Made by a program: the position numbers and the translations under genes. A stretch of DNA of 64,000 nucleotides from Cellulomonas sp. ES6 (GTDB taxonomy: Bacteria; Actinomycetota; Actinomycetes; Actinomycetales; Cellulomonadaceae), in assembly GCF_030053835.1 (NCBI RefSeq), contig NZ_CP125655.1, positions 2,294,001 to 2,358,000 of the forward strand, written 5' to 3'. Shown here in pieces: positions 46,705 through 55,677 of the stretch (positions are counted from its first letter, which is position 1; each line of letters begins with the position of its first letter). The notes beneath the pieces were generated by a model. It saw only the letters and a list, made by a program, of their open reading frames with translations, was not told the origin of the DNA and made no database searches.

Positions 46705-47173
46705 CTGTACCTCGTCGCTGCCGTCGTGAGTCGCGTGGTCGAGTGTCGCACGCCCCGTCCGTGCGTCCACAGACTTGTCCACACCTGTGGGTCACGCGGG
46801 TTCACGCCGGATCCCGGCCGTCGCGGCGGCTGGAGGCCCCCTCAGGTGCGGCGTTGTCCACAGGACCGGACGACTCTGTCCACGGGGTGGGGACCGGTCG
46901 CTGCGGGACGCATCGAGCGTCGATGCTAGTGGCCGTCGCAGCCCGGCGGGAGGGGGTGGGCCCGACGGGGTGGGCGCCGCGGCCCGCACCCGGCTCCGTC
47001 GCGGTTTGACCCCCGTGCGCGGGCGTCGTAACGTTGACCAGCCTTCCTGATGGCTCCTGCTGGCGTGCCCCGACGTCGGCCGCGTCGACGACGTGGGTAC
47101 CGGAGCAGTCGAGCACGGGCACACAGACCTGGCCGGACGTCCGGCCGATGCACCGAAGTACTTGGAGACCATC
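46705..47173. promoter_or_regulatory. dnaA-rpmH intergenic region with DnaA boxes
   Basis: 469 bases without a gene between divergent dnaA and rpmH. DnaA boxes: GCGTCCACA (46763-46771), TTGTCCACA (46775-46783), TTGTCCACA (46854-46862), plus near matches TGTGGGTCA (46786-46794) and CTGTCCACG (46876-46884). TTGTCCACA is the consensus for high-GC actinobacteria. These sites probably regulate dnaA and form part of the bipartite origin. TAGCAT at 46928-46923 on the - strand is a possible dnaA -10. Confidence 0.8.
47006..47034 (+). promoter_or_regulatory. rpmH promoter
   Basis: TTGACC (47006-47011) and TAACGT (47029-47034) with a 17-bp spacer, a good vegetative promoter, leaving a leader of about 130 bases before rpmH. 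Confidence 0.7.
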
Positions 47174-48059: not shown

Positions 48060-49301
48060 ATGAGCTGGTTCGACGGCCTGCTGTACCCGATCATGGTCGT
48101 GGTCGCCTGGATCATGGTCCAGTTCCACTCGTTCTTCGACTGGATCGGGCTCGACCCGGCGGGCGGGACGGCGTGGGCGCTGTCGATCGTCGGCCTCGTG
48201 ATCGTCATGCGGATCATCCTGATCCCGCTGTTCTTCAAGCAGATCAAGGCGTCCCGCGGCATGCAGATGCTCGCGCCGGACATGAAGAAGATCCAGGCGA
48301 AGTACAAGGGCAAGACCGACCCGGCGTCCCGTGAGGCCATGAGCCGCGAGACGATGGAGCTGTACCGCAAGCACGGCACCAACCCGTTCTCGTCCTGCCT
48401 GCCGATCCTGGCCCAGTCGCCGATCTTCTTCGCGCTGTTCCGCGTGCTGAACTCGCTGCCGCAGCTCGCCGCCGGGGACTACCCGCGCGCCAACCTCGGC
48501 CCGCTGAACCAGCAGCTGGCGGCCCAGGCCGAGAGCGCGACGATCCTCGGCGCTCCGCTGTCGGCGACCTTCATGAACGCGACGCAGTTCGGCGACGCGG
48601 CCACGAACGTGCGGATCGTCACCATCCTGCTGGTGGTCGCGATGTCGCTGACCACGTTCACCACGCAGCGCCAGCTCACGATGAAGAACATGCCGCCGGC
48701 CGCCCTCGAGGGCCCGATGGCGCAGCAGCAGAAGCTGCTCATGTACGTCTTCCCGCTGATCTTCGCCTTCTCGGGCGTGAACTTCCCGATCGGTGTGCTG
48801 ATCTACTGGACCACCACGAACCTGTGGTCGATGGGCCAGCAGTTCTACACGATCCGTCGCATGCCGGCGCCGGGCTCGCAGGCCGAGGCGGCCCTCAAGG
48901 CGCGCCAGGCCAAGCGGGCGGCCGCCAAGGGCGTGTCGATCGAGGAGGACGGCGACGTCCTCACGATCGAGGAGCGCCCCGTCAGCGGTCAGCGCCAGCA
49001 GCCCGTGCGCAAGGACCGCGCGAAGAAGCGGCCCGCGGCCGGAGGCACCGCGCCTCGCCCGACGGTGACGCCGTCGGCCGGTGCGGGCACCACGTCCGGT
49101 GGCAGCCCGGCGCGGCCGGCCGGTGCGAAGGCCTCGGGTGCGGGCACGGCCGGCGGCGCCGGCACCGCGCCTGCGGCGAAGAAGAAGCGCACGGGCTCCG
49201 GCGGGTCCGGTAGCAAGGGCGGCACGGCCGCGGGTGGCAAGGGCTCGCCGTCGACCGGCGCGTCCGGGTCCGCCCGCCCCGACGGCTCGACCGACGACTG
49301 A
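48060..49301 (+). CDS. yidC: YidC/Oxa1 membrane protein insertase
   Basis: 413 residues. The Oxa1-like core (about 1-280) has helices near 8-28, 40-60, 110-130 and two at 200-265, with GGTAWALSIVGLVIVMRIIL, the KQIKASRGMQ region, NPFSSCLPILAQSPIFFAL and FPIGVLIYWTTTNLWSMGQQ. The large periplasmic domain of Gram-negative YidC is absent, as expected. The C-terminus is a long Lys/Ala/Gly-rich tail probably binding ribosomes. It inserts membrane proteins with or without SecYEG. Sits between yidD and jag. Confidence 0.97.
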   Translation: MSWFDGLLYPIMVVVAWIMVQFHSFFDWIGLDPAGGTAWALSIVGLVIVMRIILIPLFFKQIKASRGMQMLAPDMKKIQAKYKGKTDPASREAMSRETMELYRKHGTNPFSSCLPILAQSPIFFALFRVLNSLPQLAAGDYPRANLGPLNQQLAAQAESATILGAPLSATFMNATQFGDAATNVRIVTILLVVAMSLTTFTTQRQLTMKNMPPAALEGPMAQQQKLLMYVFPLIFAFSGVNFPIGVLIYWTTTNLWSMGQQFYTIRRMPAPGSQAEAALKARQAKRAAAKGVSIEEDGDVLTIEERPVSGQRQQPVRKDRAKKRPAAGGTAPRPTVTPSAGAGTTSGGSPARPAGAKASGAGTAGGAGTAPAAKKKRTGSGGSGSKGGTAAGGKGSPSTGASGSARPDGSTDD

Positions 49302-49346
49302 GACCTCGCGCCCCCGGCGCGCCCCTGTCCCCAGCAAGGAGCTGAC

Positions 49347-49859
49347 ATGACGACACCCACCGACGCCCCCGACGAGGCCGGCGCGGGCTCGCGCCTCGAG
49401 GAGGAGGGCGAGATCGCCGCCGACTACCTCGAGGAGCTGCTGGACATCGCCGACCTCGACGGCGACATCGACATCGACGTCGACCACGGCCGTGCGGCGG
49501 TGGAGATCGTGGCCGAGGAGGGCGGCGAGCGCGCACTGCGCCGCCTCGTGGGCCAGGACGGCGAGGTGCTGGACGCGCTGCAGGAGCTGACGCGGCTCGC
49601 GGTGCAGGCGAAGACCGGCGACCGGAGCCGGCTCATGCTCGACATCGCCGGCTACCGTGCAGCGCGCAAGGCCGAGCTCGTCACCGTCGCCGAGCGGGCC
49701 ATCGCGGAGGTGCGGGAGAGCGGCGCCCCGGTGTCGCTCGAGCCGATGAACCCGTTCGAGCGCAAGGTCGTGCACGACGCGGTCGCCGCCGCGGGCCTCA
49801 CGTCCGACTCGGAGGGCGTCGAGCCGGCGCGGTACGTGGTGGTCAAGCCCGCGGAGTGA
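49347..49859 (+). CDS. jag: KhpB/Jag RNA-binding protein (KH-R3H)
   Basis: 170 residues. An acidic N-terminus (EEEGEIAADYLEELLDIADL) precedes a KH domain (about 40-100, VGQDGEVLDALQELTRLAVQ) and an R3H domain (about 105-165, VSLEPMNPFERKVVHDAVAA). KhpB/Jag binds RNA and affects envelope growth. It ends the yidC operon at a hairpin. In most actinobacteria rsmG follows immediately; here rsmG lies 2.87 kb away beyond a gene-poor stretch. Confidence 0.95.
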   Translation: MTTPTDAPDEAGAGSRLEEEGEIAADYLEELLDIADLDGDIDIDVDHGRAAVEIVAEEGGERALRRLVGQDGEVLDALQELTRLAVQAKTGDRSRLMLDIAGYRAARKAELVTVAERAIAEVRESGAPVSLEPMNPFERKVVHDAVAAAGLTSDSEGVEPARYVVVKPAE

Positions 49860-49908
49860 GCGCGATCGGACCCGGCGCGGCAGCGGTCGGAGTTCGTCAG
49901 GAAGCGAT

Positions 49909-49940
49909 GAGAGGCCGGTCCCGTTCGGGATCGGCCTCTC
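49909..49940 (+). terminator. Hairpin terminator after jag
   Basis: GAGAGGCCGGTCCC (49909-49922) pairs with GGGATCGGCCTCTC (49927-49940) around GTTC; one G-T pair in 14. It ends the rpmH-jag unit. Confidence 0.85.
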
Positions 49941-50508
49941 GTGCGTCCTCGCGGCACGCTCTCAGAGGCTCTGGACGAAGCGCTGATTCGGGACTTCGAG
50001 TGGCGGCATGTGTGTGCGCGGCGGGTTTCGGTCATGTCCAGCGGTCCGGCTCCTGAGCCCGGTCGGGGCGCGTGGTCGGGTGCGGGGGCGCCGTCCGGCG
50101 CGTGCGCGTCGCTCCGAGGCGGGCACTGAGGCGCCGGCGGGATCGGTGGGGGCGGGCGGCCGGTGGAACGCAGACCTGTTGCGCTGTTCGCGCGGGTCGT
50201 CGGTCGAGGCAGCTGTGCGGGAGCTGCGGAGCCGGTCAGGGTGCCTGTGTGGAGATCGACTGCTGGCATCGAGGTCGACGGGCGGAGACCGCTGGCGCTG
50301 GCACACATGCCGGTGCGACTCCGTCTTGTCATCGCCGACCTCGCGTGCTCGGGGGAGGCCGCGGGTGATTCGCCGCTCGGCAGGGATGCGTCCCGCCGGG
50401 GAGACGTCGACCGCTCGGTGGGCTGCACCTGCGGTCCTCTCCTGCTTGCCACGGTGGCGGGCTTGTGACGGAGGGCGAGCTTGACGCCTCTCTCGCAGAG
50501 TGGCCCGC

Positions 50509-50524
50509 TGTTCCACGTGAAACC
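50509..50524. other. parS: parS site 1
   Basis: TGTTCCACGTGAAACC; one end base off the ParB consensus TGTTNCACGTGAAACA. First of six in the jag-rsmG gap. Confidence 0.85.
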
Positions 50525-50695
50525 GGCGTGCGTGCCTCACGGAGCGCCGTCCGCGGAACGGCTCAGGCTCCCGAACCGCAGTGGGTGCCCGGGCGGGCGT
50601 CGCCACGAGGCATCGATTGAGAGCGTGTCGGGTGCCCGGCCGGATAGCCATGTCGCGGATCGGTGCCCTCTGGGTCGCCACTGCGGGGTCGTGGT

Positions 50696-50711
50696 CGTTC
50701 CACGCGAAACA
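50696..50711. other. parS: parS site 2 (degenerate)
   Basis: CGTTCCACGCGAAACA; two changes from consensus, including the central CACGTG core (CACGCG). Likely weaker. Confidence 0.6.
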
Positions 50712-50766
50712 CGAGCTCTGCGACGGCTCGCTCACGCCGACGCCGACGTGGCGCCTCTGACCGCGC

Positions 50767-50782
50767 CGTTCCACGTGAAACT
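50767..50782. other. parS: parS site 3
   Basis: CGTTCCACGTGAAACT; core and both arms match, only the end bases differ from consensus. Confidence 0.8.
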
Positions 50783-51102
50783 GGACCCGAGCGAACGTGG
50801 CGGAGTGTGATGCCGCGATGGCGTGAAGTCGCTCGGACGGCAGGAGCGGAAGGTCCTTGCGAGACGCACGCGACGGGGCGCCAACCACGAAGCGATGACG
50901 GCGGCGGCGTGGGGGCCGAGACATCAGGGGGCGGAGCCACGCGAACGGGCGAGGGCTCGTGAGGCGCGAGGGCGCACAACCTCGAGCGTCCACCGCGGTG
51001 CCGGCCTGCCGCCCAGCGACGGCGGACGTACTGAGGACGGAGTCGACGTCTGCGCCGGAGGACCCCCGCGACCAGGGCGCACCCGACGACCAGGAGATGC
51101 CC

Positions 51103-51282
51103 CACGAACCGGTGGGGCAGGTCGAGGCCGTGGTGTCGGATGAGCCGGTGGTGCTGGGAGAAGGGGTGGTACGTCACGAGCCGGTGGTGCGGCACGAGCC
51201 GGTGGTGCTGAGCGAGGCGGTGGTGCGGCCTGAACCGGTGGTGGCGGACCACGTAGTGGTGCCGCACGGGCCCGAGCGGCCG
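51103..51282 (+). repeat. 18-bp tandem repeat block A (degenerate, ten units)
   Basis: Ten consecutive 18-base units starting at 51103; best copies read CACGAGCCGGTGGTGCKG. In the + frame beginning at 51103 they encode degenerate hexapeptides such as HEPVVR and HEPVVL with Glu kept by both GAA and GAG. The units share their CACGARCYGGTGG core with block B. Confidence 0.85.
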
Positions 51283-51401
51283 CACGGTTGGGCCCTGAGC
51301 GAGGCGCGAGAGCAGAGCCGCACCTGCCCGGCTGCGGGGGAAGAGAGCGTGCACCGGGCGAGGAATGAACCGGAGTTCGGATGCCGCGCGGGCCGGACCT
51401 G

Positions 51402-51653
51402 CCACATGGCCCGGGGACACCCCACGGACCGGGGACACCCCACGGACCGGTGGCGCCCCACGAACTGGTGGCGCCCCACGAACTGGTGGCGCCCCACGAA
51501 CTGGTGGCGCCCCACGAACTGGTGGCGCCCCACGAACTGGTGGCGCCCCACGAACTGGTGGCGCCCCACGAACTGGTGGCGCCCCACGAACTGGTGGCGC
51601 CCCACGAACTGGAGGTGCCCCACGAACTGGAGGTGCCCCACGAATCGGAGGCG
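51402..51653 (+). repeat. 18-bp tandem repeat block B (fourteen units, eight identical)
   Basis: Fourteen contiguous 18-base units; eight in a row (51456-51599) are identical, CCCCACGAACTGGTGGCG. Flanking units diverge on both sides (CGGACC on the left, GGAGGTG on the right), the pattern of a minisatellite homogenised in its middle. All six frames are open through it. The array is out of register with block A by two bases modulo three. Confidence 0.95.
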
Positions 51654-51896
51654 TCCCCATGTCGGAGAGGCGCCATGCGGTAGAGGCCGAACCGGGTGCG
51701 CGCCCATGCCGCCGGCCCGGACCGCGTTCCGCGGAGGTGGGGGAGGGGGCCTGCCCATCGAGAGGAGACAGATCGTGGTCTGCGCGCACGCCGCGAAGGT
51801 CGGTTGGCCGGTGCCTCGTGCGAGCGGGGTGCCGCTGCGGCGGGACGCGACGCCGAATCCAGCGTGTGGCCGGGCCCGCGACCGAGCGTCGGGGAC

Positions 51897-51912
51897 TGTT
51901 CCACGTGAAACA
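51897..51912. other. parS: parS site 4
   Basis: TGTTCCACGTGAAACA, an exact match to TGTTNCACGTGAAACA; the best copy in the cluster. Confidence 0.93.
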
Positions 51913-52002
51913 GCGCGCAGCATCCGGCCTCGCCACCGTCGCCGCCGAGCGGGTCCCTGACCGGACGTCGGTGTGATCGCGCAGCTGTCGTGCTGGCTCC
52001 CA

Positions 52003-52018
52003 CGTTCCACGTGAAACC
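52003..52018. other. parS: parS site 5
   Basis: CGTTCCACGTGAAACC; end bases differ from consensus, core intact. Confidence 0.8.
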
Positions 52019-52218
52019 ACCGCTGTAGGCCGGTCATGGAGCGTGCTCGGACGACGCACGAAGGGCGCGGGTTGTCGGTGCGGGGTCTCACTCGCATGCA
52101 CGCGCACCCCTCCCGGTGGCGACCGGCCTCAGACGTGCCCGGCAGTCGACGCGACGAGCGCCGCCCCGCGGCCAGGACTCGGCCGCCGGGAGGTTCGGCG
52201 ACCGGGAGACCGGGAGGA

Positions 52219-52347
52219 CCGGCGACGGGAGGACCCGTGACCGGGAGGACCCGTGACCGGGAGGAGCCGTGACCGGGAGAGTCCGCGACCGGGAGAACCC
52301 ACGGTCGAGAGGACCGGCCAAGGGGAGAAACCCGCGGCTATGAGAAC
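52219..52347 (+). repeat. 16-bp tandem repeat block C
   Basis: About eight units of 16 bases (the last is 17); the cleanest, CCGTGACCGGGAGGAC, is at 52235-52250, repeated with one change at 52251-52266, and units decay to the right. A partial continuation lies to the left (from about 52185). Unrelated in sequence to the 18-bp blocks. Confidence 0.85.
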
Positions 52348-52603
52348 CCGTGGCCGAAGCCGCCAGCAGCCGCGTCACCGCGCGGCCGCGGCGACCCCGA
52401 TCAGGCGTTGGCCGCCGTGCGTGAGCGGTGACGGACGGGCAGGGTGATCCCGGATGACGGCTGACACCGCCCGGCCTGGACCTCGACCCCCCGAAGATCG
52501 CCGGGGCCGCAGCCTCCGACGGGGCAGGACTCGTGCCGATGGTCGCGAGGGTCGCGCGGCACACGAGGCACGCAGGGCGCCCGAACGAGGCGCGTCTCGG
52601 CTT

Positions 52604-52619
52604 GGTTCCACGTGGAACA
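52604..52619. other. parS: parS site 6
   Basis: GGTTCCACGTGGAACA; a perfect inner palindrome GTTCCACGTGGAAC, with two changes from the consensus. Confidence 0.75.
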
Positions 52620-52730
52620 TCGCCACGCGCGGCCGGTCGACCCCGCGCGGCGCGGTACGGTAGAACGTCCCTGCGCGCCGAGTCATCAGCACCCGCGCAA
52701 CCCACCGCGAGACCGTCCCTGGGGAGTCCT

Positions 52731-53531
52731 GTGCGGCCTGAGTCGGCACCTGCGCCCGACGAGCGAACCGAGCGCGCCGACGCGTCGGTGAGCCGGACGG
52801 CCGAGCCGGACGAGCAGCGCGACCCTCTCGCCGGCGATCCCCGTCTGCCTGTGCTGTTCGGCGGCGGCTGGCCGGCCGTCGAGCGGTTCCACTCGATGCT
52901 CCAGGACGACGGCGTCCTGCGCGGGCTGGTCGGGCCTCGGGAGGTCTCGCGCCTCTGGGAGCGTCACCTGGTCAACTCGGCGGCGGTCGTCGCCTTCCTC
53001 CCGGAGCGCGGCCGCATCGTGGACGTGGGCAGCGGAGCCGGCCTGCCGGGCGTGGTGGTCGCGGCGATGCGACCGGGCGCCGAGGTGGTCCTGCTCGAGC
53101 CCATGGAGCGCCGGGTCGACTGGCTGACGGAGGTCGTCGAGCGGCTCGGCCTCGGCAACGTCCAGGTGCTGCGGGGACGGGCGGAGGACGTCGGCGCGCT
53201 CGAGGCGGACGCCGTCACCGCCCGCGCGGTGGCGGCGCTGGAGAGGCTCTACGGGTGGACCCTGCCGCTCCTGCGGGTGGGCGGGCGCCTCGTCGCGCTC
53301 AAGGGCAGCCGGGCGCAGGCCGAGGTGGACGCCGCGGCGGAGATCGGACGCAGGCTCGGGGGAGGAGTGCCCGAGGTCCTGGTCGCCCCGACGCTGCCGG
53401 GCCTGGACCCGACGACAGTGGTCGTCGTCGAGAAGGCGGGTCCGGGCGAGCCCGCTGCCGGCCGTGTTTCACGTGGAACAGAGAGCAAGTCGCGGCAGTC
53501 GCGCCGCGCGGCGAAGGGACAGCGCCGGTGA
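52731..53531 (+). CDS. rsmG: 16S rRNA (guanine-N7)-methyltransferase RsmG
   Basis: 266 residues from a GTG with GGGGAG four bases upstream; the longer frame from 52533 has no homology. The core has LPVLFGGGWPAVERFHSML, RLWERHLVNSAAVV and the SAM-binding VDVGSGAGLPGVVVAAMRP, then VLLEPMERRVDWLTEVV. It methylates G527 of 16S rRNA. A parS site (53465-53480) lies inside its last codons. The stop overlaps the parA GTG (GTGA). The C-terminal Arg/Ser/Lys tail is non-conserved. Confidence 0.95.
   Translation: MRPESAPAPDERTERADASVSRTAEPDEQRDPLAGDPRLPVLFGGGWPAVERFHSMLQDDGVLRGLVGPREVSRLWERHLVNSAAVVAFLPERGRIVDVGSGAGLPGVVVAAMRPGAEVVLLEPMERRVDWLTEVVERLGLGNVQVLRGRAEDVGALEADAVTARAVAALERLYGWTLPLLRVGGRLVALKGSRAQAEVDAAAEIGRRLGGGVPEVLVAPTLPGLDPTTVVVVEKAGPGEPAAGRVSRGTESKSRQSRRAAKGQRR
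53465..53480. other. parS: parS site 7, inside rsmG
   Basis: TGTTTCACGTGGAACA; one change from consensus, within the non-conserved C-terminal codons of rsmG and 48 bases before the parA stop-start overlap. Confidence 0.85.
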
Positions 53532-54514
53532 CGACCGAACCCGGACCGTGGCGGGACGACGCGGAGGAGCGGCGCCGAGCGGCGCTGATCGAGAGCCTCC
53601 CGCCGGCTGACGAGGACACCCCGCTGATGGCCGAGCTCCGACAGGACGCCCGCCGCCGCATCGAGCTCCGCGGCCGGGTGTTCAGCAAGCCGGACCGGAC
53701 GCGCGTCATCACCATCGCCAACCAGAAGGGTGGCGTCGGCAAGACCACGACCACGGTCAACCTTGCCGCGGCCCTCGCCCAGGGCGGCCTCCACGTGCTG
53801 GTCATCGACAACGACCCGCAGGGGAACGCGTCGACGGCGCTCGGCGTCGACCACCACGCCGGCGTGACCTCGGTGTACGACGTGCTCGTCGACGGGGCGC
53901 CCCTCGAGACCGCGGTCCACCCCAGCCCCGACGTGTCCCGCCTGTGGTGCGTACCGGCGACGATCGACCTGTCGGGTGCCGAGATCGAGCTCGTCTCCAT
54001 GGTGGCCCGTGAGACCCGGCTGCGCTCGGCGCTGTCGACCTACCTGCAGCAGCGCGAGGAGCGGGGCGAACCGCGCATCGACTACGTGCTCGTCGACTGC
54101 CCGCCGAGCCTCGGCCTGCTCACGGTGAACGCCTTCGTCGTGGCGGACGAGGTGCTGATCCCCATCCAGTGCGAGTACTACGCGCTGGAGGGCCTGAGCC
54201 AGCTCCTGAAGTCCATCGAGCTGATCCAGGCGCACCTGAACCCGGGACTCCACGTCTCGACCATCCTGCTCACCATGTACGACAGCCGGACGAACCTCGC
54301 CCAGCAGGTGGCGCAGGAGGTCCGTGAGCACTTCCCGCAGCAGACGCTGCGGACCACCGTCCCGCGATCGGTGCGCGTCTCCGAGGCGCCCTCCTACGGG
54401 CAGACGGTCCTGACATACGATCCGGGCTCGAGCGGTGCGCTCGCCTACCTGGAGGCAGCACGAGAGCTCGCCGAGCGCGGGAGCACCGCGGCCGGGACGA
54501 AGGAGGACGCGTGA
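53528..54514 (+). CDS. parA: ParA chromosome-partitioning ATPase
   Basis: 328 residues. A disordered N-terminus of about 55 residues precedes the deviant Walker [10 protein letters not shown] (67-75), with [29 protein letters not shown] (Walker B) and the nucleoid-binding region. ParA dimers on the nucleoid pull ParB-parS complexes apart. The GTG start overlaps rsmG and the stop overlaps parB. Next to the parS cluster, as expected for an origin-proximal par locus. Confidence 0.97.
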
Positions 54515-55677
54515 GCGAGAAGCGACGGGGGCTCGGGCGCGGTCTGGGTGCCCTGATCCCGACCGGCCAGGAGACGCGCAGCACGGACGGCGGGAGCAGG
54601 CCGGTCGACGTGTTCTTCCCCGACCGGTCCGGCGAGCGGCCCGTTCACGAGGGTGACAACGCTCTGACCAGCGACGATACGACCTCCGACGCGGCCGCAG
54701 CCTCGGGTGCGCCGGCTCAGGCGGACCCGCGGACGGGGGCCGAGCAGGGGTCGAGTGCATCCTCGGACGGGGCGGACGTCGCCGCCGCCGCGGGCGGTCC
54801 GGACCCGGCGGCCCCCGCGCCGCAGGACGCATCCGACGACACCGACGGGCTGCTCCCGGTCCCGGGCGCGACCTTCGCGGAGCTGCCCGTCGGCGCCATC
54901 AGCCCCAACCCGAAGCAGCCCCGCACGGTCTTCGACGAGGACGCCCTCGAGGAGCTCGTCGGGTCCATCCGGGAGATCGGCGTGCTGCAGCCGGTCGTCG
55001 TGCGCCCTGTCGGCGACGGCTACGAGCTCATCATGGGGGAGCGGCGCTGGCGCGCGACGCAGGCGGCCGGACTCGACACCATCCCGGCGATCGTGCGCCG
55101 GACGGACGACGAGGACCTGCTGCGCGACGCGCTGCTCGAGAACCTGCACCGCTCGCAGCTCAACCCGCTCGAGGAGGCCGCGGCCTACCAGCAGCTCCTG
55201 GACGACTTCGGGTGCACGCACGACGAGCTGGCGCAGCGCATCCACCGGTCGCGCCCGCAGATCTCCAACACCCTGCGCCTCCTGCGGCTGCCCCCGCTGG
55301 TCCAGCGGCGCGTGGCCGCGGGCGTGCTGTCCGCCGGCCACGCGCGGGCGCTGCTCGGGCTGGGGGACGGCGCGGCCATCGAGCGCCTCGCGCAGCGCAT
55401 CGTCGCCGAGGGGTTGTCCGTCCGTGCCGTCGAGGAGATCGTCGCGCTGGGCGGCGACGGCGCGGGCCGCCGTCAGCGGCAGCAGCCGCGTGCGGGCATC
55501 CGGAACGAGGCCCTCGACGACCTGGCCGGACGGCTCTCCGACCGCTTCGAGACGCGCGTCAAGGTGGACCTCGGGAAGCGGCGCGGTCGGCTCACGGTCG
55601 AGTTCGCGTCGGTGCAGGACCTGAACCGCATCCTCGCGAGCCTGGCACCCGACGACCCGGGCATCTTCCGCGGTTGA
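54511..55677 (+). CDS. parB: ParB chromosome-partitioning CTPase/DNA-binding protein
   Basis: 388 residues. It opens with the ParA-interacting [16 protein letters not shown]; an acidic/Ala-rich linker (about 30-120) follows. The CTP-binding domain has [12 protein letters not shown] and [20 protein letters not shown]; the helix-turn-helix has [20 protein letters not shown], and the C-terminus (about 330-388) is the dimerisation domain. It loads at parS and slides along DNA as a clamp. Overlaps parA by four bases. Ends at a terminator. Confidence 0.97.

Follow-up and report, generated by a model that had tools for sequence, protein, structure and literature searches.

The chromosome of Cellulomonas sp. 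ES6 is assembled as one contig of 4.12 Mb, and we examined 64 kb of it (hereafter the window) that contains a cluster of parS sites, the predicted loading sites of the partition protein ParB, next to the parAB genes. The genes in the window follow the order dnaN, dnaA, rpmH-rnpA-yidD-yidC-jag, gap, rsmG, parA, parB, where rpmH, rnpA and yidD are presumed from open reading frames (ORFs) and the usual gene order. dnaN and dnaA at 43.3-46.8 kb of the window place the cluster in the ori domain, the dnaA start and the first parS site being 3.7 kb apart. Two perfect DnaA-box matches are found at 46775 and 46854, and the whole window has 10 matches with at most one mismatch, compared with 4.4 by chance. 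The first-pass annotation had described the cluster as lying beside parAB, and complete cognate parA and parB genes do adjoin it on the same chromosome: parA starts 48 bp past the end of the last parS site and overlaps rsmG by 4 bases (parA GTG at 53528). The closest named matches of ParA are from Cellulomonas sp. IC4_254 and C. hominis (88% identical), and the parB product matches solved Spo0J/ParB chains.

All seven parS-like sites listed in that annotation are present at their positions (Table 1). They had been said to match the 16-mer TGTTNCACGTGAAACA, which is true to the letter at 51897 (+) and 53465 (-), while the site at 50509 has one mismatch and those at 50696, 50767, 52003 and 52604 have two. 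The 14-bp near-palindromic parS core GTTYCACGTGRAAC is exact in six of the seven sites, and the remaining one, at 50697, has a single mismatch (GTTCCACGCGAAAC). Shuffled versions of the window average 0.01 matches to the 16-mer with at most two mismatches, compared with 11 observed when strands are counted separately. In the rest of the 4.12-Mb genome, the core with at most one mismatch has a single further match, which is exact and lies 122 kb away (C1:2469136). Thus, 3 kb of the 4.12 Mb carry six of the seven exact cores, and an equal density of sites along the genome is refuted. Because ParB and Noc are related proteins, and the NCBIfam Noc model gives the ParB of the window 209.8 bits, the motifs might be taken for binding sites of Noc, the nucleoid occlusion protein. 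The score is, however, below the cut-off of 315 for that model. A Noc-binding half-site is defined by A1 and C6 in the available text of PMC7383237, whereas G1 is found in both halves of all seven sites and A6 in both halves of six, site 2 having one G6. ParB also seems to carry the parS-type R and G at the equivalents of residues 173 and 201, with the numbering deduced from conserved residues (PMC7383237, available text). The chance that these are Noc sites is therefore practically negligible.

The placement of six sites in a gene-poor region and of one inside rsmG agrees with a codon-model scan of the jag-rsmG gap, in which overlapping 240-bp windows were scored in their best frame, and with the position of site 7. 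The median score is -0.20 in the zone (44 windows) versus 0.49 in genes (45 windows; minimum 0.11), and 43 of the 44 zone windows score 0.05 or less, the sole exception (0.15) starting at 51420 on an 18-bp repeat array. The longest non-coding-like runs of the whole 64 kb are two stretches of 1380 bp, both in this zone. The zone was rejected as protein-coding, since its five long ORFs have no Pfam match above cut-off and no codon signal is seen; Cementoin and LED_rpt match weakly, below cut-off, on the repeat array. No Rfam RNA reaches its threshold in the zone; the only ones to do so in the window are three tRNAs outside it. Three tandem repeat arrays occupy parts of the zone, and the alignment with the conspecific locus L086 is gapped at 51420-51644, suggesting a change in copy number there. 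The long hairpin directly 3' of jag is a possible terminator or insulator; scans for T-tailed terminators and sigma-70 promoters returned nothing in 49300-53700, a result that is weakly informative in such GC-rich DNA.

Table 1. Features of the parS zone and its border genes (window coordinates, except the last row, which refers to locus L098)
Feature	Position	Strand	Remark
parS site 1	50509..50524	+	core exact
parS site 2	50696..50711	+	one core mismatch, absent from conspecific L086
parS site 3	50767..50782	+	core exact
parS site 4	51897..51912	+	full 16-mer exact; L086 has a second copy beside it
parS site 5	52003..52018	+	core exact
parS site 6	52604..52619	+	core exact; ~110 bp upstream of predicted rsmG start
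parS site 7	53465..53480	-	full 16-mer exact; inside rsmG 3' end (last codons)
Gene-free parS zone	49860..52730		jag stop (49859) to predicted rsmG start (52731)
Degenerate 18-bp tandem repeat	51104..51249		~8 copies
18-bp tandem repeat CCCCACGAACTGGTGGCG	51420..51644		12.5 copies, 96% matches
16-bp tandem repeat array	52208..52356		48-bp higher-order period
jag/khpB	49347..49859	+	upstream zone border; Pfam R3H 71.3 bits (above cut-off); NCBIfam Jag_EloR below cut-off
rsmG	52731..53531	+	start (GTG) predicted; NCBIfam TIGR00138 above cut-off
parA	53528..54514	+	GTG start; Pfam AAA_31 192 bits; NCBIfam ParA models below their cut-offs
parB	54511..55677	+	N-terminal, HTH and C-terminal dimerisation domains (Pfam); TIGR00180 above cut-off
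Long hairpin	49909..49940	+	directly 3' of jag; strong fold, no T run
L098 variant sites	4056, 5117, 5165, 5663, 6631	one orientation	GTTTCACGGGAAAC

To describe the zone across Cellulomonas, we used 81 genomes, of which 79 have an rsmG match. One of these is the window itself (G000), and G099 was left out because its rsmG is split over two contigs; with the other 77 loci, taken as stretches of 3.5-14.7 kb, the comparison has 78 rows. Sites in these loci are parS cores with at most one mismatch, and 492 of 525 are exact (L098 left out). Exact parS is present in 80 of the 81 genomes, the exception being G097. No parS lies in parA, in parB or in the DNA taken behind parB in 77 of the 78 loci, and in the 63 loci that reach jag every site lies past the jag stop, the other 15 stretches ending before jag. 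In a set of NCBI-named Cellulomonas loci that overlaps the 78 rows (e.g. L005 and L093), 13 of 15 likewise keep their sites out of parAB and the DNA behind. In 59 of the 78 loci parS is found on both sides of rsmG. Both borders of the zone are present in 62 loci, where its length, measured without rsmG, ranges from 1.0 to 7.1 kb (median 3.1 kb) and the number of parS from 3 to 13 (median 7). Only 9 of 1742 windows in these zones are coding-like, and longer zones carry more parS (Spearman 0.71, kinship ignored). Tandem repeats make up 7.0% of the non-coding-like sequence of the zones versus 2.0% of the non-coding-like sequence in the rest of these loci, and 42 of the 62 zones contain an array of at least three copies. 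The jag-rsmG gap is enlarged and bears parS in most of the genus. One could still regard the zone as the remains of a gene or mobile element that by chance contains parS, as it is filled with tandem repeats and with open ORFs of no recognised domain (Pfam run on five). Most of the genus, however, has an enlarged non-coding zone at this position, with no coding signal and with spacers that are poorly alignable between species; such an origin is highly improbable.

The distribution of parS over whole genomes was surveyed in 21 genomes of one contig (two in G089). Among 20 of them, 149 of 174 exact sites lie in the zone and 25 are remote; the twenty-first, G097, has none. All of the remote sites are within ~330 kb of the zone when chromosomes are taken as circular. 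Together with one from G008, the 26 remote loci fall in a penicillin-binding-protein-like gene in five cases and in a second gene in seven, and the rest form groups of five, two and two plus five singletons. Remote parS thus recur in the same genes across several Cellulomonas species (L085:5137, L163-L187) and may represent conserved secondary sites. Seven open frames with third-position G+C of 0.95-0.99 (L085, L163, L165, L166, L170, L185 and L186; L176 and L178 left out) have their lone GAA codon in parS. This result is partly built in, since the pattern by which the loci were chosen requires either GAA or AAA in this frame; that several species have parS in the same gene is less subject to such bias. 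G097 (locus L098) has no canonical parS and carries instead five zone sites in one orientation, all GTTTCACGGGAAAC, and one remote variant site, GTTCCACGGGAAAC. One half-site of this variant has the Noc-type base at position 6. That the parS of G097 changed following a change in ParB specificity is unsupported: the DNA-binding part of its ParB has no corresponding change, and within the aligned residues 118-315 a single residue, 315, is not shared with any other member of the genus.

Two sites are anchored, and the others move. In 15 of the 78 rows, which form the subclade of the window, rsmG overlaps or abuts parA, and all 15 have parS in the rsmG tail, at 65 bp from the rsmG stop in 14 loci and at 50 bp in the fifteenth; none of the remaining 63 rows has parS there. 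The site before rsmG lies 199-222 bp from the start of the RsmG domain in 11 of the 15 loci and 274-425 bp in the other four, and the distances of the other sites vary between loci of the subclade. The conspecific L086 shares all seven sites of the window and has one extra copy adjoining site 4. L087, whose RsmG is 86% identical to that of the window, has a gap of 2954 bp (2968 bp in the window) and also seven sites, and its spacers align at only ~50%. The sites at 50697, 52004, 52605 and 53466 occupy the same alignment columns in this pair (4 of 7) and the other three do not; since in sequence this diverged the motif itself may lead an aligner to match sites, only the two anchored sites are secure. 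In three alignable pairs, parS differs at 5 of 224 bases and the rest of the jag-parA interval, rsmG included, at 1383 of 9526, so that parS is conserved above background in these pairs. We claim turnover of place for the sites other than the two anchored ones before and inside rsmG. The anchored sites raise the question whether parS here mainly regulates rsmG-parA-parB, as an autoregulatory element and not a centromere. Site 6, ~110 bp upstream of where rsmG is predicted to start, keeps its place in 11 of 15 subclade loci and site 7 is in rsmG, and both may have a regulatory role besides that of a centromere. Seven sites over 3 kb are, however, far more than an operator, and in Brevibacterium, Brachybacterium and Dermabacteraceae the sites are mostly downstream of parB and cannot act at a parAB promoter. 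A mainly regulatory array is thus very unlikely.

Comparison of 80 named loci for the place of the array around parAB extends the pattern to other genera. In Georgenia, Occultella, Ruania and Promicromonospora it is the space from rsmG to parA that is enlarged and rich in sites, and Promicromonospora has additional ones in parA and at parB. The corresponding gap follows parB in Brevibacterium, Dermabacteraceae and Brachybacterium. Because the place of the gap differs among these loci, the array occupies different slots around parAB by family. The five loci of Georgenia, Occultella and Ruania resemble Cellulomonas in packing 9-12 sites with at most one mismatch into 2.5-3.0 kb next to parA, but they do so in the rsmG-parA gap and not in the jag-rsmG gap. 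Of the 15 loci from Brevibacterium, Dermabacteraceae and Brachybacterium, 14 carry 8-15 such sites near parAB, as in Cellulomonas, but the array is behind parB, with an additional site at parA/parB in Brevibacterium; L059 has only two sites. Streptomyces also has parS near parAB: in each of the seven loci a single site lies in the rsmG-parA gap and another one to three follow parB. Its gaps are not enlarged, however (jag-rsmG 80-182 bp, rsmG-parA 301-521 bp), and its sites are scattered, one being inside parA in six of the seven loci. Corynebacterium glutamicum, another actinobacterium with ParABS, has an ori-proximal cluster of ten parS that resemble those of B. subtilis, and nine of these are intergenic, but they extend over 35 kb and lie 73 kb from oriC (PMC7083940, available text). 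In the window, by contrast, 3 kb hold all seven sites, a single gene-free gap contains six of them, and the perfect DnaA-box matches beside dnaA are 3.7-6.7 kb away. The parS1-4 sites of Pseudomonas aeruginosa likewise form an ori-proximal cluster, but these four sites lie among genes (available parts of PMC4368675 and PMC7022226). Clusters of parS near oriC are thus already known, and the compact, almost gene-free zone is an architectural variant. A full-text search (titles and abstract starts; subscription journals thinly covered) found no published description of such a zone.

The sites of Brachybacterium, seen downstream of parB in loci L056, L068, L069 and L079 and in 38 genomes (G103-G106 and 34 more), show a peculiarity of their own, in that perfect parS is largely avoided. 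Its 38 genomes have 401 sites with at most one mismatch (19 for a reversed control pattern), and 41 of these are perfect. No perfect parS is found in 18 of the 35 genomes that bear sites, and three genomes have no site at all. In four genomes each of the 43 sites has exactly one mismatch, 11 of their 13 two-mismatch sites keep one perfect half, and mismatches are concentrated at position 6. In B. equifaecis, 9 of 12 sites are perfect. Avoidance of CACGTG, for example through restriction, is not supported as a cause, as observed versus expected counts show no clear depletion in the loci of four Brachybacterium genomes and L098.

These results suggest that the zone is the oriC-proximal centromere of the chromosomal ParABS system, a parS array in a stretch kept almost gene-free, to which we give a probability of about 0.88. 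This reading is drawn from sequence features: the parS cores, the cognate parAB adjoining, the confinement of sites to the zone, the lack of coding signal, and the conservation of sites relative to spacers. The dedicated ParB loading zone proposed in the first-pass annotation is likewise supported by the comparison among genomes, the word dedicated being one that we infer from non-coding content, the correlation of length with site number, and site conservation. In the ParABS scheme given by the available parts of PMC7053999, PMC10387095, PMC7022226 and PMC7083940, ParB is loaded at parS with CTP as clamps that slide and bridge, the complex is moved by ParA, and SMC is recruited. In Cellulomonas, ParB-CTP would load at the parS sites of the zone and the clamps would slide over the gene-free DNA, condensing it into a partition complex that ParA would move and that would load SMC. 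We infer that the open DNA serves ParB sliding. What selection appears to maintain is how many sites there are, the open space and the two anchored sites, and not the places of the others; hence the fast divergence of spacers, the tandem repeats, and the local gain and loss of sites.

It is also possible that the gene-free space is a by-product, in that dense ParB disturbs transcription and genes among parS are lost, the space being tolerated and not kept. Functionless bacterial DNA is expected to shrink by deletion, yet all 62 zones with two borders still measure 1.0-7.1 kb; and rsmG stays flanked by parS in 59 of the 78 loci, so that genes are not wholly excluded. Neither argument is decisive. 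ParB does repress genes beside the intergenic parS3 and parS4 of P. aeruginosa (PMC7022226, available text), and simulations fitted to ChIP-seq data suggest that roadblocks and transcription hinder ParB sliding little (PMC10387095, available text), so that open space may not be needed. This weakens the idea that sliding requires the exclusion of genes, and because of it the by-product explanation, although the less probable of the two, keeps a substantial share.

Several observations weigh against the centromere reading. Locus L120 has four sites scored as downstream, at a locus where the script found no parA, and 2 of the 15 named Cellulomonas loci (L007 and L021) have parS in or behind parAB. 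The correlation of zone length with site number takes no account of kinship, and the alignable pairs are few (n = 3). In the first search of relatives, exact parS was found in 57 of 58 genomes, the remaining one, G042, belonging to the same order. Moreover, a single parS is enough in C. glutamicum (PMC7083940), and one of the four oriC-proximal parS is enough in P. aeruginosa (PMC4368675, PMC7022226), according to the available parts of these papers; the need for seven sites is thus not established.

Taken jointly, the loci allow a wider reading, which we hold tentatively and at somewhat less than even odds. Several actinobacterial families may have built a regional centromere, a dedicated gene-free stretch in which the number of parS, the open length and a few anchors would be selected and the places of the other sites would not. 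Such a stretch would resemble satellite DNA, with sites gained and lost by local duplication, and its slot around parAB would differ by family. The strength of sites may also be selected, with Brachybacterium largely avoiding perfect palindromes and keeping one weakened half-site in most of its sites.

The zone bears on the open question of why parS sites cluster. About 80 Cellulomonas genomes carry a homologous zone with varying length and site number and with anchored and moving sites; this variation opens the question to comparative tests and to zone swapping. If the open space itself is selected, the zone would be a genomic counterpart to ParB sliding, that is, DNA reserved for the partition complex. 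The pattern in Brachybacterium would make the affinity of parS a selected trait.

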